Source: Haloplanus sp. XH21
Lineage (GTDB): Archaea; Halobacteriota; Halobacteria; Halobacteriales; Haloferacaceae
DNA: 64,000 bases
Direction: 5' to 3'
NCBI RefSeq assembly: GCF_023276355.1
Contig: NZ_JALLPL010000001.1
Location: 186,001-250,000, forward strand
In this document: positions 53,658 through 64,000 of the stretch, piece by piece
Position numbering within the stretch: position 1 is the first letter of the stretch
Layout: each line of letters starts with the position of its first letter
Notes under the pieces: generated by a model
Seen by the model: the letters and a program-made list of their open reading frames with translations, nothing else
What the model was told of the DNA's origin: nothing
Databases searched by the model: none
Made by a program: the position numbers and the translations under genes

Positions 53658-55211
53658 TCATTCTGGAGAGGTTTTGAAAAGCTGCTCGCGTATCTCTGCG
53701 CCATACCATAGTGTACGGTCGTCGATCTGTTCGTTGACATCCTGTATGGACACGTCCTGTGATGAAACTAGATCAAGGTACTCCAAGATGAGGTCTGCAT
53801 AGAGTTCGCGAGCGCGGTTGAGGAACGTGCTTGCAAGGAATTCCTCGTCCTCGACCGTAATCCACTCACCATCGCTCGGTTCGTCTGGGAGTGTTGTATC
53901 CTCGTGGACGACCTCGTTCCGGTAATCATACAGCGTTCTGAAGAACTCTCCTATCTGTTCTGACGACCAATTGCGAGCGTTCTGCTCACCCAGAAGCACT
54001 GCCGTCCGCACACCGAGCCGGTATTTGTTCCCGCCAGGAGAGCCACCTTTCAGCACGGTCGTTTCGCAGCCGACGACGCAGTCGACTAATTGATCCTCGA
54101 GAGACTCCCGGCTGAACATTCGCTCGAACCGGGCCAGCGGATTCTGAAACTTGTCATGGCCTGGGGCGATTCGGCGTCGATGATCTCGCCACAGTCGAGG
54201 AATCTCCAGGGCACGATCTTCAGCGATATGCGTTCCTTCCGTCGAACTCGGGCACTCGAATTCGAGTTCAAAGGTGACCGGTGCCGCAATTCCACGGTAC
54301 GTTTCCCAGCCTGGCACCACGTTGTAGCCCTTCTCGTAGCCAACAGTTCCCATCGGGCAGAGGAGCCGCAGACACCGACGAACGGTCGCCGCGAGATACT
54401 CTATTACGTTGGTCAGCTGCTGCCAGGGATAGACGTCGGCCGGTGTGACGTCAAAATCGGGACGTTCCCAGGGGGAGATTTCGGTGTCATCGATCTCGCG
54501 AGCGATCTCTCTAAAGGGCCGCCGGCGTCGGAGAACGATTTCTAGCGCTGCGTTCGGGCCGCCTGCATCGAGCGTCTCGACTGGTTCGAGGACGCTCGTC
54601 CCCGGGGCTTCGTGCGTCGCGATTCCGGCTTCCTCCAGACGGTCTAAGGGGCGAATCCGGAGCGTGTCAACGGCGTATGGTCCCAGATAGTCCGGGCTAC
54701 CTTGGATCTCCGTATCGAGGTCAATCGTGATGTCTGGCTCGATGGAGATGTTCTTTAGAACGAGCAGAAAACGGGAGTACTCTCGATCGGTGAACCGGGG
54801 CTCGAACTGCTCCTCGAAGGCGTTTGCGAAGGCATCCTCGTCGAACTGAAACTCGCCGGCGTAATTCAACACGACCCCGACGAACTCGAACAGTCCCCGT
54901 TCGATAGACTCGACACGGTTGGCTTCGGATAACTGATCGTCGTCTGGAGGATCCGGGAGCTGATCGTAGATGACCTGGGCCGCCTCTGCAAATTCGCCAG
55001 CATAGAGATTATCGAAGAGATCCCTGTCGTCGAAGAGGTCACCGGGAGCTGGAACCGAGACTTCCTCGGTGTTCTGCATAAACCCGCCAGCACTCAGCTG
55101 ATTGAACGTCCGTGTTGGTGGATCGACATCCACGTCGGAGTGCCGTTCGATGACGGCTTGGACTCCATCTTTGATTAGCGGGCGCACATCAGCGCCCCAC
55201 TCAGGTGGCAT
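53658..55211 (-). CDS. HEPN-type RNase-like protein
   Basis: A 517-residue protein. The first ~330 residues are an unassigned acidic region. The C-terminal ~150 resemble Apea-like HEPN domains: FERMFSRESLEDQLVDCVVG, GGNKYRLGVRTAVLL and LYDYRNEVVHED. The RNEVVH segment (near 430) fits the R-x4-6-H motif of HEPN ribonucleases. HEPN RNases commonly kill or arrest infected cells. It follows the coiled-coil membrane-protein gene by 39 bases and is probably in the same operon, next to a GmrSD enzyme. Confidence 0.65.
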   Translation of the reverse strand: MPPEWGADVRPLIKDGVQAVIERHSDVDVDPPTRTFNQLSAGGFMQNTEEVSVPAPGDLFDDRDLFDNLYAGEFAEAAQVIYDQLPDPPDDDQLSEANRVESIERGLFEFVGVVLNYAGEFQFDEDAFANAFEEQFEPRFTDREYSRFLLVLKNISIEPDITIDLDTEIQGSPDYLGPYAVDTLRIRPLDRLEEAGIATHEAPGTSVLEPVETLDAGGPNAALEIVLRRRRPFREIAREIDDTEISPWERPDFDVTPADVYPWQQLTNVIEYLAATVRRCLRLLCPMGTVGYEKGYNVVPGWETYRGIAAPVTFELEFECPSSTEGTHIAEDRALEIPRLWRDHRRRIAPGHDKFQNPLARFERMFSRESLEDQLVDCVVGCETTVLKGGSPGGNKYRLGVRTAVLLGEQNARNWSSEQIGEFFRTLYDYRNEVVHEDTTLPDEPSDGEWITVEDEEFLASTFLNRARELYADLILEYLDLVSSQDVSIQDVNEQIDDRTLWYGAEIREQLFKTSPE

Positions 55212-55250
55212 TCTATCAGGGACTACTCTACCCTTCCACTTAGTTCACCG

Positions 55251-55940
55251 TTAGACCGGCTGATTCTCGTCCGCCGCGTCCGTCGTGTCATCATCCACTG
55301 ACCGCTTGGGTGACTCGTCCGTAATCTCCGTAATTTCTCGATAGAGGTGTAGGAATACGTAACCGAGACCACACACCCACGCTGCGAACACAGCTATCGA
55401 GCGTACACCTGCTGGTCCGAGCTCGGTTGATATCCCCAACACACGAAGGAGGTACGCGAGCGAAGGCACAACGACCGCCAAGAGAATCGCGATCACACTC
55501 GCTTTGAGAGTTCCTGTTACATTCGCTGGGTCAAGAGCATCGTATCGGCTCACGAGCCGCTGTCGTTCGTCGGTGAGTGCTTCCCGTCGACTCCGCAACT
55601 GGATCCAGCGGCGATGGTTTCGATTGTGCCGTCTGGCGCTCTGGATGTCGGCTTGAACGTTCGCCGCCTGTGAGTCTTCCGACTCGCGATAGAACTCCCG
55701 TTCCGGCGACAACCGGGGTTTTTCGACATACCGAGGCTCGTCAATATTGTGCGTCTTGTCCTCGATATCGGTCTGTTCTCTGTCGAGACCTCGAAGCTTG
55801 GCGTCGATCTCCTCGATCCGGCGGTTGATCCAGTGGCGTTCGGCCTTGAGATTCGAGAGGTTACTGACTAAGAGGGCGGTCAGAATCCCGATAAAGACGC
55901 TTGCCGAAGTAGCGAGTGCGGCGTAGAAACCTGCTGGCAT
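55251..55940 (-). CDS. Coiled-coil membrane protein
   Basis: A 229-residue protein with one N-terminal membrane helix (ALATSASVFIGILTALLVSN), a ~115-residue coiled coil rich in Glu/Arg (NLKAERHWINRRIEEIDAKL onward) and two C-terminal membrane helices (VIAILLAVVVPSLAYLLRVL and VFAAWVCGLGYVFLHLY). The ATG at 55940 (MPAGFYAALATS) is chosen over a longer frame that runs into the divergent GmrSD promoter. It may be a membrane sensor or anchor for the HEPN protein; this rests on gene order only. Confidence 0.65.
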   Translation of the reverse strand: MPAGFYAALATSASVFIGILTALLVSNLSNLKAERHWINRRIEEIDAKLRGLDREQTDIEDKTHNIDEPRYVEKPRLSPEREFYRESEDSQAANVQADIQSARRHNRNHRRWIQLRSRREALTDERQRLVSRYDALDPANVTGTLKASVIAILLAVVVPSLAYLLRVLGISTELGPAGVRSIAVFAAWVCGLGYVFLHLYREITEITDESPKRSVDDDTTDAADENQPV

Positions 55941-55980
55941 ACGTTCGTAGGTGGGGTTTGGTCCCCTATTGGTACTGGAA

Positions 55981-55987
55981 TTTATTA
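55981..55987 (+). promoter_or_regulatory. TATA box of the GmrSD gene
   Basis: TTTATTA lies 26-32 bases before the ATG at 56013, consistent with a leaderless transcript. The region between the two divergent starts is only 72 bases. Confidence 0.5.
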
Positions 55988-56012
55988 CGGCGGCATTTAA
56001 ACACCTGCTAAC

Positions 56013-58430
56013 ATGCCGAAGGCGGATCAAAAAACAGTCTCACAGGTCTTTTCGGACGCAAAATTACAAGTCCCACTCTATCAGCGAAGCTACGCTTGGG
56101 AACCGCAGCAGGTCGAGGACCTCCTGAACGACATCGACTACGTCTATCGCCGGCGCTACGGCTCTCCGAACGCTCGCAGCGTGACTACTGCTCCATCCGA
56201 TGCGGGCAGCAACGACATGAACGGGAATTCAGACGTCTACCACTACTTCGGGACGTTGGTTCTCAACGCGAGAGGCAAGCAGGACATGATGGGGTCGGAG
56301 TGGACCGTTTACGACATAATTGACGGGCAACAGCGGCTCACGACGACCAACGTCTTCATCGCCTGCATCGTGGAGGAGCTCGAGGCGATCGCGGATGCAT
56401 TCGATGCTGCGGGGCTCGGCAAGGAGGATCTCCCGGAAGGTGTCGTTCGCCCTCCTGGCTATCTCGCGACGAATTACACGGAGAACTATCTCAAGCTTGG
56501 CGACCGGAAGGAGGGCCGCCATCTTGAGCCCGGAGAACTCACTGAAGCAGCGTATGCAGAACTCATCATCGACCAGGGTGATCCACAGACGATCCTTGAC
56601 AATGACGAGCGGCTTGTCCCGGAGAAGAAGCTGGCCAGAGCGAAAGAAATCATCCAGAAGTGGATCCGTGAGAAGCGGGAACTCTTCCTCGGTGATGAAG
56701 ACCTGGGGCAGGCTACGGAAGCGGATCTCCTCGAATACTATACGGCCATCAAGCGGTATACGGGTGTTCTCACTTCCCAATTCAAACTCACCTCTCAAGA
56801 GGTCGAGAGCACGGACGAGGCAGGTCGGCTCTTCGAGGCTGTCAACGACCGAGGACGGGATATCACCCTTGCCGACAAGGTCAAATCGTACCTGATCTAC
56901 GTCTCCGGCGAATTCGACACGTTGGACTCAGAAGCAGTCGCCCGCCGATTCAACGACGCAGTCGAAACGGTCGCCCAGTACGCCACCGACGATGACGATA
57001 TCGACCAACTGGTTCAGTTCCACTGGGAGCTCTTTACGGGAGAGTACAAGAAAGTCCGCAAGAACCGATCTGGCCCGACGCCAATCCACCGGCGTATCAA
57101 GGAATCACCCCGCCATATTCCCCTCGAACGGGATCCAGAAGAGGTCGCGACGTGGGTCAACAACTACGTCGACACGCTCTCGAGCGTCTCCAAATCCTAC
57201 GTCCAAGCGAATTATCTCGACGTTTTCAACCGGCAAACCGACGTCTCGCCCCAGGTCCAGGCTCGCGTCAAGTCCCTCCACAACATCAACTTCTCCAATA
57301 TCGCGCCGCTCATCATCGCAGCCATCGAGCGATACGATGCTGACAGCCCGGAGTTCGCGCGGATTGCCACGCTCTGTGAGGTTTATTCGTTCCGCGTCTA
57401 CCAGGTCGCCAAACGATCGCAACGAACCGCACGCCGCGAGTTCAAGGAGGCAGCGCACCGGCTCTACGCCTCCGAGTTCGAGGACGGCTTCGTCGAGGAT
57501 CTGTTCGGTGAAGCGGTCGTCGACCCGCCCTACGAGAACCCAGCTGCCGCCGTCGACGAGGTGACGGCGTATCTCGACAATTACATCGGCCGGCACTGCC
57601 CCGATAACGACTTCGTCGAGTACCTGACGCGGTCGGACATCATCCAGGGGAGCGACACGCGCGGGTGGCCGGGCTTCTGTAACAAGGGTGCGATCCGGTT
57701 CCTGTTGTTCGAGTACGAGAAGCACCTTCGCCAGGAGAAGAACACGGATACGTCGCTGAAAATGCTCCCCAGCGTGATGGACCTCGACGAGTTCACGATC
57801 GAGCACATCGCGCCGCGAACGCCGGAGACCAGCGCTGCGGAGCTTGAAAATCACGAGGAGAACGTGAATCGGTTGGGGAATCTCGCGCTCCTCGGGCCGA
57901 AGGATAATCCGTCAGCGTCGAACGACGAGTATGCGACAAAGTACGAGGAGATCTACCAAGACGCGCAGATGGAGATCCTTGGTGATGACCTCCCAGCTCC
58001 GGCAGCGGGCTGGGACGTCGACGCGCTGGATGCACGAGCGCGGGATATCGTGGCCTTCGCGCTCGACCACTGGAGTGGCGAATCGGCGGCCGTCGTTACG
58101 ATGGCACAGGGAAGTTCCGACGAAGCTGAGGAGGCAGCCACTGATCCGAGGACGGACACCGCGTTCACCATCCGTGATGATGCACAACGGACGTATGCGG
58201 AGGACCTCGACGTGGATCCTTCGCGAGTGAAACTTGTCCGACAGGGTGACGCGGATATGCCGAGTTCAGGCGCCGATGGGGTAACCGAACTCCCACAGTG
58301 CTCCTGTGGAGCGCTCTACACTCGCATCTCCGATGGAGAGGATGACACAGAGATGTACGAGTGCGTCTGTGGGTCCTCGTTAGAAGCTCCGAATCTCGCT
58401 GGGATCACTCGGTCGGTTCTCGCTGACTGA
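56013..58430 (+). CDS. GmrSD-type modification-dependent restriction enzyme
   Basis: An 805-residue type IV restriction-like protein. The DUF262 (GmrS) domain has QVPLYQRSYAWE near 18 and IIDGQQRLTT near 103, the NTP-binding and hydrolysis signature. The DUF1524 (GmrD) domain has the His-Me nuclease motif FTIEHIAPRTPET near 595 with the following RLGNLALLGPKDNPSASND. A C-terminal extension (~690-805) carries a zinc-ribbon-like CSCGALY...CVCGSS, which is not part of the standard enzyme. GmrSD proteins cut DNA with modified (for example glucosylated) cytosines; target here unknown. Confidence 0.9.
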   Translation: MPKADQKTVSQVFSDAKLQVPLYQRSYAWEPQQVEDLLNDIDYVYRRRYGSPNARSVTTAPSDAGSNDMNGNSDVYHYFGTLVLNARGKQDMMGSEWTVYDIIDGQQRLTTTNVFIACIVEELEAIADAFDAAGLGKEDLPEGVVRPPGYLATNYTENYLKLGDRKEGRHLEPGELTEAAYAELIIDQGDPQTILDNDERLVPEKKLARAKEIIQKWIREKRELFLGDEDLGQATEADLLEYYTAIKRYTGVLTSQFKLTSQEVESTDEAGRLFEAVNDRGRDITLADKVKSYLIYVSGEFDTLDSEAVARRFNDAVETVAQYATDDDDIDQLVQFHWELFTGEYKKVRKNRSGPTPIHRRIKESPRHIPLERDPEEVATWVNNYVDTLSSVSKSYVQANYLDVFNRQTDVSPQVQARVKSLHNINFSNIAPLIIAAIERYDADSPEFARIATLCEVYSFRVYQVAKRSQRTARREFKEAAHRLYASEFEDGFVEDLFGEAVVDPPYENPAAAVDEVTAYLDNYIGRHCPDNDFVEYLTRSDIIQGSDTRGWPGFCNKGAIRFLLFEYEKHLRQEKNTDTSLKMLPSVMDLDEFTIEHIAPRTPETSAAELENHEENVNRLGNLALLGPKDNPSASNDEYATKYEEIYQDAQMEILGDDLPAPAAGWDVDALDARARDIVAFALDHWSGESAAVVTMAQGSSDEAEEAATDPRTDTAFTIRDDAQRTYAEDLDVDPSRVKLVRQGDADMPSSGADGVTELPQCSCGALYTRISDGEDDTEMYECVCGSSLEAPNLAGITRSVLAD

Positions 58431-58528: not shown

Positions 58529-59077
58529 TTAGTCAACGAGAAGTCCCTCCACCTTCGTCTGAAGGTGATTGAATGCCTCCTCCGCAGTCTCTACATCTGC
58601 TGCGCCGGTTATCACGACATTACCATTCGCGAAGACTAACAGCACGGCTGGGAAATCCGGCGGTCGGTAGATGAGACCAGGGAACTGCTCGGGTTCGTAC
58701 TCGACTGCTTCTAGTCCCAGTCCGACCGACAGCGCATTGAGGTTCACCGATCGCTGCAACTCTCCCGTACAGACGACGTTTTGGACGGTAAACCCGGTCT
58801 CGATGGATGTATTGATGATGTCCAGCCCGGCGAGGGTTTGCAGGAACGCACGGTTTGTCTCGTGTAATTCCTCGAAGCTGGAACGGCCGCTGATGATGTA
58901 CTTGCCACTCCGGTAGAGGGTGATGAGTGGTCCATCCTCGACGAGCCGTACGTAGAGACCGTGGTAGTTCTCGGGATCGTATTCGGTGTACGGAACCGGG
59001 AGATCAGCTTCGACTTCCGCAATGTCCAGTTCGACACCGACATCGCCTGAGCCAACGGCGTTCGCGATCTCAACCAT
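58529..59077 (-). CDS. tbp: TATA-binding protein, accessory copy 1
   Basis: A 182-residue TBP with the usual two direct repeats (~1-90 and ~92-180). Conserved blocks include VEYEPEQFPGLIYRPP with the matching TEYDPENYHGLYVRL of repeat 1, and KYIISG with its counterpart NVVITG. TBP binds TATA boxes and recruits TFB and RNA polymerase. The surface is less acidic than the haloarchaeal main TBP, and the gene lies in a defence cluster, so it is an accessory copy. The ATG directly abuts the helicase stop (TAAATG), so it is translated from the helicase mRNA. Confidence 0.9.
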   Translation of the reverse strand: MVEIANAVGSGDVGVELDIAEVEADLPVPYTEYDPENYHGLYVRLVEDGPLITLYRSGKYIISGRSSFEELHETNRAFLQTLAGLDIINTSIETGFTVQNVVCTGELQRSVNLNALSVGLGLEAVEYEPEQFPGLIYRPPDFPAVLLVFANGNVVITGAADVETAEEAFNHLQTKVEGLLVD

Positions 59078-62044
59078 TTAGTCCCCTCCGGACGGCGGTG
59101 ACACAACGAACGCTGCCGTCACGAGGTCTGGTTCCTGCGGCGTGACGTGCTTCTCTTCCTCAAGCCGGGACAGTTCCTCTTCACGCTCTCGTCGCAGACT
59201 TTCGAGCTTCTGCTTCGCGTTCCCAATCGGCGCGGACATATCCGCACCCTGCTCAGCCCGCTGTTGGTACTGCTCTAACCGCTCTTCCCACTCTTCGATT
59301 TGCTCTTCGAAGTATCGCCCAGCGTGCTCGCGTTTGATTTCGATCTCCCGTTCTCGTTCGGTTCGGGCCTCTTCGGCAAACGACTCAACGTGCGTCCACG
59401 CCTCCATTTCTGCGCCCTCGTAGAGGTCCTCCGCCATACTCGAAAGCCGATCAACCTCGTGCGACGACGAGACATCACTGGGAGCGGCCGTCTTCGAGAG
59501 TTCTGGAACATCCGTCATTACACTGCCATCCGGGCGAGCATAGAAGCGAACGAACTTCTCGGTCACCACATCCCCGGCACCGGAGACGTAGCCAAGGCGG
59601 TAATTGAACAGGATGCCAGGCGTTCGAGACGCCGTCGCAGCGATTTTCGTCGCAATTTCACCCTGGATCCGGTCACTGTCCAAGCAGAATTCGATGAGCG
59701 ACTCGACGAGAGGATGGTCAAGCGAGATGAACTCAACATCATCCTCCTCCATCGCGATATCCTTGGTGAAAGTGGCCCGTGGGTACTGTCGTGCCACCTG
59801 ATTTCCACTCAAGACCTCAGGGACATCCAACTGGAACACGTCACCCTCCATCCGGGCCGGTCCGGGTCGAACACCCTTGATGGAGCCGCCGAATTCGTCA
59901 AAGAACACGCGCACGAGCGTCTCGATGTCGTCCTCGGACACCTCGCCGTGTTGACTGCGTTCGATCACGTCGAGAATCTCGTCGTCCTCGCCGGAGAGGT
60001 CGAAGCGATCGCGAATCAGGAACTCGTTTTCGACAGTCTGAATCGCTTCGCGTTTCTCCTCGATGGTCGCCTCGATATCGGCGACGACACGTTCAGTCGG
60101 CTCGCCTTCAGCGATAGCCGCCATGATCGTCTCGTCCAAGTCGACGTCCTCGAGGACGCGACCGAGGACATCTGAGCGCATCCCGAGGTCCGACTCGATC
60201 TGATTCGTCTTCTCGATGAGCAGGTTGAGGATCTCGCTCTCGCGGGTATCGGCGAAGAAGAGGTTGCGAATCTCGACCGTGTGCTCCTGGCCGTAGCGGT
60301 GGAGCCGCCCCATCCGCTGGTCGATCCGGATGGGATTCCACGGGAGGTCGTAGTTCACCATGATGTGGGCGAACTGAAGGTTGAGCCCCTCTTGGGCGGC
60401 GTCGGTCGCGAGCATCAGATTAGCTTCCTCCTCGAATTTGCTCATCTCTTCTCGTCGACGGGACTGCTCGAGGTCGCCGTACACCTGGGCGACGTCGTGG
60501 TCAGCGAAGACCTCGTCACGTAGATACTCCAGCGTGTCCGTGTATTCGGTGAAAATCAGGATTTTCTCGTCGGGGTCCTCTGAGAGAATTCGGTCGACGA
60601 ACTGTCGGAGCAATCGGGCCTTCGAGTCCGTCTCGATGTTCTTGGCCTGCTGCCAGAGCTGTTTCACGCGGTCCAGCTCCTGCTGGACTTGCGACTGATT
60701 GAGCGTAATCGTGACCGTCTCAAGCGCCTCCTCGACCCGAGCGCGTTCTGCGTCGGTCAGTGTCTCGGGTTCGGTACTATACCGCGGAATGAGGTTCTGA
60801 ACCTCGTCAGGGAGGTCTTCTGCGACGGCGTCGTTCTGAATCGCCCGCATCCGGTTTTCGAGGGACTTCCGGATCGCGTAGATACTCGAGACCAGCCGCT
60901 TCTGGTAGATGACCATCGTGAACCCCGCCGCCTGGTTCTCCTCCTGCTGAGCAAGGTTGTAGTATTCGCGGATATACTCGGTGACGTCGTCGTACAGCTT
61001 CCGCTCCTCGCGTGTCATCTCGACCGGGAGTGCCTCGATGTTCTTCTCGGGGAACATTCGGGTCCCGTCGGTCTCGTACATATCGTCCTTCAGCCGCCGG
61101 ATCATCAGGTCCTCAAGCGCCTCGGGACTGATCTGCGACTCGTGGCTGAAGCGATACGGGTCGAGCAGACTCACGAGGAAGTAGAACTGGTCTGATTTCC
61201 CCTTGTGCGGGGTCCCGGTGAGCAGCAGCAGCGCATCGGAGTTGTCGGCGACGGCCTCACCGACCTGATACCGCTGTGTCCGCTCGATTGAGTCGTCGCT
61301 CGACCGTCTGGCCGTAAGGTGATGGGCCTCGTCGAAGACCGCAACGTCCCACTCCTCGTCGAGATTCTGGAGGGCATCGAGGACGGAGACGCGGTCCGAC
61401 TCAGGGTCGTCCGTGGTCTGCTTCGCGAAGTCGATGGAGGTGATAATGAGATCCTCTTGCTTCCAGACGTTCTGGTTGGGGTGGGACTTCCGGTGTGTAC
61501 GGACCGTCTCGCGGTCGTAGATGACGAAGTTGCGGTCGAACTTCTCGCGCATCTCCTCCTGCCACTGGACGGTCAGCGGCGCCGGCGCGACGATGAGCAC
61601 CCGGTCGGCGCGGTCGCGTGCGATGAGCTCTTCGATGACGATGCCGGCTTCGATGGTCTTCCCGAGGCCGACTTCGTCGCCGATGAGGTAGCGGTGGTCG
61701 TAGGAGTTGAGGATCTCGTAGGCGGCCTGGACCTGGTACGGTTCGATCTCGATGCGGTTGCTGGTCAGCGAGAGAAAGCGGTCGTACTTGTAGGCGAGAT
61801 CCAGCCGGATCGCCCGCTCTCGGAGGTCGTAATGGAGCGGGGCGTCGGATTGGCCCGCTGTGAGGCGGTCGACGAGCGAATCGAGTTTCTCGATGTGAGG
61901 GAGGCCGCTAGGGAGTTTGCGGAGCTGGCCCTCCGAGGTGTAGACGTGGAGGAGATGACCTCCGTTGGGCCGTTCCTCGATTTTCGTGATTTCTCCACGC
62001 CCGCCGGCGAACTTGACGTAGTCGCCAATCTCGAAGTTATTCAT
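59078..62044 (-). CDS. SNF2-type helicase of a DISARM-like locus
   Basis: A 988-residue superfamily 2 helicase. Motif I GDEVGLGKTIEAG is near 117, DEAH (VFDEAHHL) near 238, motif III LTGTPHKG, motif V TDAAQEGLNLQ near 545 and motif VI QRMGRLHRYGQ near 577. The ~60-residue N terminus (FEIGDYVKFAGGRGEITKIE) and the long C-terminal coiled coil are outside the core. The size, type and neighbouring adenine methyltransferase fit DrmD of class 1 DISARM defence, though drmA, drmB and drmC are not in the window. It overlaps a methyltransferase remnant upstream and abuts TBP copy 1 downstream. Confidence 0.85.
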   Translation of the reverse strand: MNNFEIGDYVKFAGGRGEITKIEERPNGGHLLHVYTSEGQLRKLPSGLPHIEKLDSLVDRLTAGQSDAPLHYDLRERAIRLDLAYKYDRFLSLTSNRIEIEPYQVQAAYEILNSYDHRYLIGDEVGLGKTIEAGIVIEELIARDRADRVLIVAPAPLTVQWQEEMREKFDRNFVIYDRETVRTHRKSHPNQNVWKQEDLIITSIDFAKQTTDDPESDRVSVLDALQNLDEEWDVAVFDEAHHLTARRSSDDSIERTQRYQVGEAVADNSDALLLLTGTPHKGKSDQFYFLVSLLDPYRFSHESQISPEALEDLMIRRLKDDMYETDGTRMFPEKNIEALPVEMTREERKLYDDVTEYIREYYNLAQQEENQAAGFTMVIYQKRLVSSIYAIRKSLENRMRAIQNDAVAEDLPDEVQNLIPRYSTEPETLTDAERARVEEALETVTITLNQSQVQQELDRVKQLWQQAKNIETDSKARLLRQFVDRILSEDPDEKILIFTEYTDTLEYLRDEVFADHDVAQVYGDLEQSRRREEMSKFEEEANLMLATDAAQEGLNLQFAHIMVNYDLPWNPIRIDQRMGRLHRYGQEHTVEIRNLFFADTRESEILNLLIEKTNQIESDLGMRSDVLGRVLEDVDLDETIMAAIAEGEPTERVVADIEATIEEKREAIQTVENEFLIRDRFDLSGEDDEILDVIERSQHGEVSEDDIETLVRVFFDEFGGSIKGVRPGPARMEGDVFQLDVPEVLSGNQVARQYPRATFTKDIAMEEDDVEFISLDHPLVESLIEFCLDSDRIQGEIATKIAATASRTPGILFNYRLGYVSGAGDVVTEKFVRFYARPDGSVMTDVPELSKTAAPSDVSSSHEVDRLSSMAEDLYEGAEMEAWTHVESFAEEARTEREREIEIKREHAGRYFEEQIEEWEERLEQYQQRAEQGADMSAPIGNAKQKLESLRREREEELSRLEEEKHVTPQEPDLVTAAFVVSPPSGGD

Positions 62045-62192
62045 AGTAAACTACCGATTCGACGGTTCCCCCATCAGCCAAGCCGTAGAGGGTGTGCTCC
62101 TTAACCAGAAATTCATCGAGATAATCGAGGTACTCATTGATGGTACGGGTGAATATATTCTTGTGACGATTGTCGATAAACGGGGATACATT
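62037..62192 (-). pseudogene. C-terminal remnant of a methyltransferase gene
   Basis: A 51-codon open stretch ends INEYLDYLDEFLVKEHTLYG, LADGGTVESVVYYE, then stop. It resembles the end of the intact methyltransferase gene (YDLYGLTDEEIEVVESEEG), and its stop overlaps the helicase start as ATGAATAA, much as the intact gene's stop overlaps the helicase remnant. No start or upstream domain remains. The match is short, so it is uncertain on its own; it is supported by the helicase and TBP duplication around it. Confidence 0.45.
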
Positions 62193-62219
62193 CTACAGTA
62201 TGATGAAAGAAGAGTCATT

Positions 62220-62765
62220 TCACATTCCAACCCCCTCGAGCAGGGTTATCACCGACTCAATTGTGTCTGCTGCGAGTGATTCGTTTGTTACACCTGTTAT
62301 GACCACTTTTCCAGTCGCAAAAACCAGGGCAACTGAATCAATGGATGGAGGACGAAAAATAAGACCAGGGAACTGCTCGGGCTCGTACTCAACATTTTCT
62401 AGTCCGGCGTGGATAGCTAATGCCGACAAATTAATACTGTTTTCAAGGTCGCATGTGAATACCATATTCTTGATGGAAAAATGTAGATCTTCTTGACTGC
62501 TTGTAACGCCCATCTCTTCAAGTAAATCAAGAACATTTGAGCGTGTGTTTTGTAGCCCATCTTTCGATGTTGCACCACTGATAATATACTTTCCAGTTCG
62601 TGCTACAACAACGGTTGGGCCTTCGTCTTTAAATTTGAAATATAGTCCTGGGCCTTTGATATAGACAATTTCAAGCGGCAAATCATCAGCTAATCTACGG
62701 AGGTCTATTTCAACGTCAAGTGCCCCAGAACCTACTATATTAACAACTTCTAATTTATTATTCAT
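62220..62765 (-). CDS. tbp: TATA-binding protein, accessory copy 2
   Basis: A 181-residue TBP paralogue of copy 1, with the same two-repeat layout: GKYIISGATS in repeat 1, VEYEPEQFPGLIFRPP in repeat 2, then GKVVITGVTN. Parts of the DNA are nearly identical to copy 1 around the EPEQFPGLI block, but codon use is much more AT-rich and the protein is less acidic. It begins at the ATG inside the end of the helicase remnant, mirroring the helicase-TBP junction of copy 1. Confidence 0.88.
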   Translation of the reverse strand: MNNKLEVVNIVGSGALDVEIDLRRLADDLPLEIVYIKGPGLYFKFKDEGPTVVVARTGKYIISGATSKDGLQNTRSNVLDLLEEMGVTSSQEDLHFSIKNMVFTCDLENSINLSALAIHAGLENVEYEPEQFPGLIFRPPSIDSVALVFATGKVVITGVTNESLAADTIESVITLLEGVGM

Positions 62766-62931
62766 ATTTGACCAACTGTCTTGTCGGGGAAGGCCACGGG
62801 GGATTTGCGAAGCTGTCCCTCTGTAGTGGAGACATAAGGAGGTGACCGCCGTTCAGTTGTTCTTCGATCTTCGTGACTTCTCTATGTCTACCAGCGAATT
62901 TGACGCAATCATTGACAACGAAGCCAGTCAT
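62762..62931 (-). pseudogene. N-terminal remnant of a second helicase gene
   Basis: The ATG at 62931 overlaps the methyltransferase stop (ATGA) and opens MTGFVVNDCVKFAGRHREVT, KIEEQLNGGHLL, clearly matching the intact helicase start (NNFEIGDYVKFAGGRGEITK, IEERPNGGHLL). After GGHLL a one-base shift is needed: the next frame reads YVSTTEGQLRKSPVAFPD, matching HVYTSEGQLRKLPSGLPH. It then stops, and TBP copy 2 begins. The rest of this helicase is deleted. Confidence 0.8.
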
Positions 62932-64000
62932 CCTTCTTCTGACTCAACGACTTCTATTTCCTCATCGGTCAACCCGTAGAGATCATAGACGATTTCGTCG
63001 ATGAGTCGGTCAGTCTTTACGATCTTCTCGTCCAACTCTTCGGCACGCTCTTTTGTTTTAATATACCTCCGGAGATCGTCAACGACCTCGTCGGGGTCAG
63101 GGAGTGTGATGACCTTCAGCCGATCAATTAGCGAGTTGGTCTTCGTGGCATTGTCTCGGAAGCCTGCAAAGCCGTCGGCCTCCTCAACTGCGACAGGGAC
63201 GAACGCTCCAACCAGCGCGGCCTCCTCCTCGCTGAGGTCGGTTAGTGCGAACGCTTCTTTGTAGTCGGTTTCCGTGTATCCCCACTGATCTGTGTCGTGT
63301 TCATTCTCGTTCTCGGGCTTGTATCGGGCCGTTGCGTAGATGGTAACGCGGCGACCGTCACGTTCGGTTTTCACATCGCCGACACGAAGGTTCTCGTAGT
63401 CTTCGGTGGTGGCGTTAAGGATGCTGGAGTTAGTAGGCTGAAAGAGCCCGATATCGGGAAGAGTAGGGCCATCAGTGTAGTTGCCCAGGTAGTCGAGGAG
63501 ATCGAGGTTGAGATCTCGAAGTGAGTCATAATCTGATTCGATACTCTGTGCTAAGAAGGACAAAACATCGTGCTTAGTTCGGTCTGTTTGTTGGCGGAGG
63601 TGATCGACGAATTGTTTCAGTGAGGTATCCGAATTGATATACTCCATATACTCTGAGTTAATGTTGTAGTCATCAGACTCCGAAGAAGTCAAATCAAGAT
63701 CTTTTATTGGGAGTTTTCGTAGATGAGACGGTTTGACTTCATATTCGTCAAATACCCAATTGAAGTACGAATCAAGCAACTCCGAGTTCAGGAGTGCTAA
63801 AATATAACCTAAGTCATAGTTCACTTCGTCATTCAATACAACGTTAGATACACGATTTAGGTTGTAATACTGTTCGCGGTCAAGAGTTGCAACCAATTTC
63901 CGAGCAAGCCCCCGTCGGGTTCTCTGAAGTAGAATTTTGTCATCTGTAAAAATATACTCAGGAGGAAGTGTACGGGCTTTATCGCCATACTCTTCAATTA
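62928..64000 (-). CDS. Adenine-specific DNA methyltransferase, C-terminal part (5' end outside window)
   Basis: The frame is open to the right edge. The visible ~357 residues look like the specificity (TaqI_C-type) half of a large N6-adenine methyltransferase: IFTDDKILLQRTRRG at the edge, YNLNRVSNVVLNDEVNYDLG, YILALLNSELLDSYFNW, KPSHLRKLPIKDLDL, then a helical end (LIDEIVYDLYGLTDEEIEVV). The catalytic NPPY motif would lie outside. In class 1 DISARM the DrmMI methyltransferase sits next to the DrmD helicase, matching this order. Its stop overlaps the helicase remnant. Confidence 0.78.
   Translation of the reverse strand, partial: IEEYGDKARTLPPEYIFTDDKILLQRTRRGLARKLVATLDREQYYNLNRVSNVVLNDEVNYDLGYILALLNSELLDSYFNWVFDEYEVKPSHLRKLPIKDLDLTSSESDDYNINSEYMEYINSDTSLKQFVDHLRQQTDRTKHDVLSFLAQSIESDYDSLRDLNLDLLDYLGNYTDGPTLPDIGLFQPTNSSILNATTEDYENLRVGDVKTERDGRRVTIYATARYKPENENEHDTDQWGYTETDYKEAFALTDLSEEEAALVGAFVPVAVEEADGFAGFRDNATKTNSLIDRLKVITLPDPDEVVDDLRRYIKTKERAEELDEKIVKTDRLIDEIVYDLYGLTDEEIEVVESEEG

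Follow-up and report, generated by a model that had tools for sequence, protein, structure and literature searches.

Genes for TATA-binding proteins (TBPs) are regular members of DNA-modification operons in haloarchaea. We observed methyltransferase, restriction-helicase or BREX genes at 17 of 19 loci carrying a TBP similar to the one called TBP2 here, versus none of 20 core-TBP loci (p = 3e-9). We consider this a more interesting result than the history of the locus in which TBP2 lies. The window, 64,000 nt of Haloplanus sp. XH21 (contig 1 bases 186001-250000; positions >64000 are given as extended window coordinates), carries TBP2 and a second TBP gene, TBP1, in what is probably, as judged from the sequence, a single working DNA-modification operon of presumed defence function, remodelled by recombination.

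On the minus strand the order is type IIG-like methyltransferase, helicase 5' remnant, TBP2, a spacer with a methyltransferase 3' remnant, SNF2 helicase and TBP1 (Table 1). The first-pass annotation had listed all six elements at or very near these coordinates and had called both TBP genes intact; both are indeed full-length. The mirrored junctions that it described are present as well: the methyltransferase stop overlaps the ATG of the helicase remnant, and TATGAATAA occurs at the TBP2 start and again at the helicase start. The middle of the locus is AT-rich.

Table 1. Features of the operon in window coordinates
Feature	Position	Strand	Remarks
Intact type IIG-like methyltransferase gene, 3' part	62928..64000	-	Whole gene 67031-62928, 1367 aa, starts beyond the window
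Helicase 5' remnant, 57-aa ORF	62758..62931	-	Helicase homology is nt 1-146 (62931-62786)
TBP2, intact TATA-binding protein, 181 aa	62220..62765	-	Pfam and residue check of lobes
Methyltransferase 3'-end remnant	62045..62119	-	Supported part of spacer 62219-62045 only
SNF2-family helicase/translocase, intact, 988 aa, BrxHII/HmaA/DrmD-like	59078..62044	-	Profile matches
TBP1, intact, 182 aa, original TATA-binding protein of the unit	58529..59077	-	Pfam and residue check
Putatively imported recombination block, in-window part	61970..64000	-	~99% identical to Halobellus clavatus; runs to ~65750

That 62931-62786 is a helicase 5' remnant is certain. Alignment of this stretch with the helicase 5' end gave 20 identical residues of 32 and a protein score of 101, the maximum among 500 shuffles being 52; the DNA score was 86 versus 30 for shuffles. 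By blastn the remnant is colinear with the end of the methyltransferase gene and the start of the helicase gene of Halolamina. Among relatives, its best match lies in the same helicase clade as the intact helicase, and its fit to several other units equals that to the resident helicase.

The methyltransferase remnant, placed at 62037-62192 in the first-pass annotation, could be retained in part. Plain protein matching did not convincingly beat shuffled sequence: the score against the resident methyltransferase was 41, below the shuffle maximum of 49, the profile rank was about 75 of 2001, and an end-anchored protein match was equalled by 21 of 1000 shuffles. Anchored DNA alignment alone did so. 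With the alignment anchored at the helicase ATG, the last 75 nt (62119-62045) scored 29, a value reached by 0 of 1000 shuffles and by one of 2000 genuine 75-mers that precede an ATG and are similar in composition; the blastn match to Halolamina CBA1230 reaches 23 nt into the spacer upstream of the helicase gene. We accept a methyltransferase 3' remnant for 62119-62045 only, a call that is weak by protein and supported by the anchored DNA alignment.

Lone methyltransferase-helicase-TBP units, the single-copy state that a search of relatives should reveal, are widespread: besides plasmids of Halolamina, Halorientalis, Halobacterium (pNRC100) and Halorubrum, many other genomes carry one. On the Halolamina plasmid pCBA1230-02 the single unit consists of a 63-aa ORF, methyltransferase, helicase and TBP. 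DNA identity to Halolamina CBA1230 changes along the locus: it is 86% in the 5' part of the methyltransferase gene and 72.6% over the methyltransferase 3' end with the helicase remnant, the methyltransferase specificity region having no DNA match, and it rises to 95.2% in the stretch that starts 23 nt ahead of the helicase gene and runs through TBP1, the DUF262 gene and beyond. At the protein level the methyltransferase is 98.7% identical to that of CBA1230 over aa 1-450 and ~77% over aa 450-780, and its C-terminus is nearest to lineages other than CBA1230. By alignment, then, the methyltransferase gene is a mosaic, CBA1230-like over aa 1-450 and of another lineage in the remainder. A search for the donor of the 3' half gave best matches of 62% and 60%, with neither helicase nor TBP in the stretch read; in the plasmid collection, values over the whole query were ~41% or less among the matches listed.

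Several observations concern related units and the surroundings of this one. Halorientalis marina has a plasmid (NZ_CP095490.1) on which two complete units (L168, L180) lie apart from each other and show an identical pattern of matches; they may represent a genuine duplication. Locus L051 (contig 5 of G157) has two distinct members of the helicase gene family in tandem with one TBP gene between them, the first helicase gene being broken by stop codons. At 53658-58430 of the window lie a DUF262/GmrSD-type gene and two more genes, conserved with the unit on pCBA1230-02, where the counterpart of one of these genes is annotated as a HEPN-domain protein. Upstream of the unit (L009 10616-14004) a calcineurin-like phosphoesterase gene adjoins a gene for an SMC/Rad50-like ATPase, with weak matches to defence models.

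Halobellus clavatus (L177) has the identical six elements with identical junctions; therefore, the arrangement is no assembly artefact of the Haloplanus genome. A block of ~3.8 kb (~65750-61970), spanning from the middle of the methyltransferase gene to the first ~75 nt of the intact helicase gene, is ~99% identical between the window and Halobellus clavatus. Its flanks diverge by several percent on either side, and the TBP1 of Halobellus clavatus has just 73% identity to TBP1 of the window. Synonymous divergence (dS) within the methyltransferase section of the block amounts to 0.023, compared with 0.22 for the helicase gene, which points to import of the block by recombination. On this comparison the two lineages recently shared the block, which in each adjoins a different resident version of helicase-TBP1; both remnants predate its exchange between the Haloplanus and Halobellus lineages. 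The window and the Halobellus locus together record remodelling of an operon through exchange of a methyltransferase-TBP block.

Both TBPs match PF00352 in two stretches each (134.7 bits for TBP1, 126.9 bits for TBP2; cut-off 22.9). TBP1 shares 94.5% identity with the TBP of Halolamina and 41% with TBP2; the two are not, as expected of duplicates, more alike than they are to other lineages. In the tree TBP1 falls within the clade of terminal TBPs (SH-aLRT 99), and TBP2 falls outside it, grouping with TBPs of other restriction/BREX systems (SH-aLRT 85); TBP2 also stayed outside the terminal clade in a more careful tree built from a smaller sequence set. Constraining TBP2 to stand beside TBP1 and its two closest relatives cost 19.8 log units (p-AU 0.068), and placing it with the whole terminal clade was not rejected (p-AU 0.34). 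Thus, a recent duplication of the TBP1/TBP2 pair is disfavoured, the latter value applying to an ancient link.

In our reading the locus probably, though by no means surely, took shape when a block of a diverged unit recombined into a single operon, one helicase and one methyltransferase being mostly lost. The ancestral unit A would have comprised the 63-aa ORF, the type IIG-like methyltransferase, the SNF2 helicase and TBP1, as on pCBA1230-02. A piece of the diverged unit B would have carried the methyltransferase from ~aa 430-450 onward, the helicase start and TBP2, and would have entered the A methyltransferase gene by recombination. The product would be a hybrid intact methyltransferase, a helicase stub, TBP2 and the 3' stub of the A methyltransferase, followed by the helicase and TBP1 of A. 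The block structure is directly visible in the alignments; the order in which crossover and deletions took place is one that we infer.

The first-pass annotation had instead proposed that one three-gene unit was duplicated in tandem and that one copy then decayed. What stands of this proposal is that two units are merged head to tail and that one helicase and one methyltransferase gene have largely disappeared; the duplication itself is not supported. It would call for very fast divergence of TBP2 along with the deletions, and it conflicts with the low TBP1-TBP2 identity, with the mosaic of 72.6% and 95.2% DNA identity and the AT-rich block, and with the ~99% Halobellus block lying between diverged flanks. 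We regard it as quite improbable, even with the gene order and both remnants in its favour, a deep common origin of TBP2 and the terminal TBPs not rejected, and whole units repeated elsewhere, as in Halorientalis marina (L168 and L180). A somewhat unlikely alternative is that TBP2 arrived by itself at the border between methyltransferase and helicase, and that the remnants stem from an independent exchange of the 3' part of the methyltransferase gene. This border would be a recurrent landing place: a TBP gene stands between methyltransferase and helicase at four other loci (L057, L067, L088, L089), these TBPs are of at least three unrelated types, and no remnants were seen there; the relatives of TBP2, moreover, belong to other restriction systems. 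Still, TBP2 in the window lies between two stubs, one of a helicase 5' end and one of a methyltransferase 3' end, in the order that fusion of two units should produce, and recombination of a block from a diverged unit remains our preferred history.

The two TBPs are asymmetric. We took the positions of the wedging Phe residues from known TBP structures; the paired Phe is typical of core TBPs and optional for the family. The pair does not occur in both lobes: it is intact in the C-lobe of TBP1 and TBP2, and the N-lobe positions hold Tyr/Tyr in TBP1 and have lost both Phe in TBP2. Most TBP2-like proteins lack the N-lobe pair, with Tyr or another residue at these positions, and nearly all retain the C-lobe pair. 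The intercalated TBPs of L057 and L067 have the reverse asymmetry, with a canonical N-lobe and a degenerate C-lobe, opposite to the terminal TBP of the same operon. TBP1 is under purifying selection (dN/dS 0.08-0.12). The earlier suggestion that selection has kept the TBP genes agrees with this for TBP1; TBP2 offers 5 informative differences only (3 synonymous, 2 non-synonymous), too few for a claim on selection, and several units have no detectable TBP. No relatives of TBP2 were found in viral contigs.

The TBP2-like loci were picked by TBP2 similarity alone (20 loci, 19 of them usable, ~10-18 kb read at each), and one fixed BLAST criterion was used for these and for the core-TBP loci. The DL1 plasmid gives one query pair and is also a test locus (L127); without it the count is 16 of 18. 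Among 58 proteins neighbouring TBP2-like TBPs, 12 match N6_Mtase and 10 match Eco57I in Pfam, and Pfam also supports the methyltransferase neighbourhood of L123. The systems that hold TBP2-like TBPs include type I, type IIG-like and BREX operons. On annotated plasmids the TBP genes lie inside BREX loci, adjoin DUF1156/DUF499 genes or are divergent to a small methyltransferase gene. Four loci (L141, L142, L143, L144) have TBP genes within BREX operons or divergent in them. Among open-licence full texts, we found no paper connecting haloarchaeal TBPs with restriction or BREX operons. Part at least of the haloarchaeal TBP surplus belongs to DNA-modification operons, not to host stress regulation, which is one possible reason for the large number of TBP genes that haloarchaea retain.

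As for what such TBPs do, we tentatively suggest, somewhat short of an even judgement, that they may act as dedicated initiation factors of their cassette. The methyltransferase would mark and check DNA, with the helicase as its ATP-driven translocase partner, and cassette-dedicated TBPs would make transcription less dependent on host TBPs; the canonical C-lobe would still touch DNA and TFB, and the altered N-lobe would shift promoter choice. With the same reserve, several haloarchaeal system types could possibly carry asymmetric TBPs of their own in this role, the C-lobe canonical and the N-lobe re-specified, and units could gain a second such TBP by block recombination. Should TBPs indeed drive the cassettes that encode them, a mobile immune system would be under the control of a basal transcription factor, and the altered lobes would amount to a natural library of TATA specificities.

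It is unlikely that these proteins are ordinary accessory host TBPs riding on plasmids, their adjacency to methyltransferases being functionally meaningless. Haloarchaeal TBPs are multicopy and some units have no detectable TBP, as this explanation would have it; in Halobacterium NRC-1, according to PMC2121645, deletion of tbpC has no apparent phenotype, a result that also speaks against our dedicated-factor reading. We take tbpC to be the TBP gene of the NRC-1 unit. Against the accessory-TBP explanation stand the strong methyltransferase association over several system types and the common lobe changes.

We also considered a structural role, in which the TBP would be a DNA-bending part of the defence complex and possibly a substrate of the SNF2 helicase. 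In eukaryotes Mot1 acts on TBP, and the proposal is by analogy. The SNF2 helicase and TBP genes adjoin and overlap in many units, the N-lobe changes concern DNA contacts, and TBPs are cited in TOTE/TALON conflict systems in passages of a preprint (PMC12458937). At L121 and L122, however, TBPs accompany methyltransferases with no helicase detected within several kb, and we hold this role to be decidedly improbable; dedicated initiation factors remain the function that we favour.

Upstream of the operon we observed a 21-nt box, TAGTCTAAGTAAAGACTATAT, which 19 units share at a distance of 39-42 nt from the start of their first ORF. Its mean pairwise identity is 0.83, against 0.28 and 0.36 in the flanks, and at <=3 mismatches it occurs once in the genome, at window ~67256-67278 (C1:253258-253276, extended). 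The box combines a TATA-like part with a 7-bp inverted repeat; from its sequence, it could be recognised by a TBP/TFB pair, by a repressor (for which the 63-aa product is one candidate) or by the two of them. It is also present, sometimes degenerate, in units with no detected TBP (L061, L068, L082, L086), which weakens the TBP reading. Being an inverted repeat kept in such units, it may be an operator for a non-TBP protein rather than a TBP-specific element. By eye no promoter motif in common with BREX or type I systems was seen, the 21-nt box being confined to the methyltransferase-helicase-TBP unit type. The 63-aa ORF (L009 9036-9227; window ~67035-67226) is conserved, lies directly 5' of the methyltransferase gene and is usual in units. 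It had no Pfam match, and since its structure model is of low confidence (pLDDT 60, pTM 0.35), an AbrB/MazE-type likeness of the product, as of a small regulator, stays a guess.

The nearest known relatives of the unit are found among restriction and defence systems. The single 1367-aa methyltransferase chain contains the Pfam domains Eco57I, N6_Mtase, MmeI_Mtase and TaqI_C (PF07669, PF02384, PF20473, PF12950), i.e. a methyltransferase fused to specificity domains, the domain set of type IIG restriction-modification enzymes (Eco57I/MmeI-like). It differs from these in that a separate SNF2 helicase and a TBP follow and that the nuclease is putative: by eye, the N-terminus has a PDY...DAK stretch resembling the PD-(D/E)xK motif, without a family match. 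Likeness to DISARM class 1 (DrmMI, DrmD) and BREX (PglX, BrxHII) is seen in the top scores, DrmMI for the methyltransferase and BrxHII for the SNF2-type helicase, which matches the HmaA and DrmD models as well. Membership in BREX was rejected, as pglZ and brxC are missing from the operon: neither had a match in ~96 kb around the unit, and the sole PglZ match of the genome (C1:1813874) is ~1.5 Mb off. Membership in DISARM was rejected as well, with the DUF1998 protein DrmB absent from the operon and the DrmD score of the helicase (446 bits) under the curated cut-off of 610; DUF1998/MZB matches are distant from the unit, those to PF09369 being only at C1:845810 and on contig C2.

With respect to the TBPs, the closest parallel is the set of multiple haloarchaeal TBPs (Halobacterium NRC-1 TbpA-F), a unit with its own TBP being present on pNRC100; earlier work regards these TBPs as global regulators, and placement in a DNA-modification operon is absent from the passages of PMC2121645 consulted. 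The TOTE/TALON systems are alike in being conflict-system operons that contain TBP genes; in the available passages of PMC12458937, TALON differs in being reported from Bacillati, with TPR-CSD and nuclease genes.
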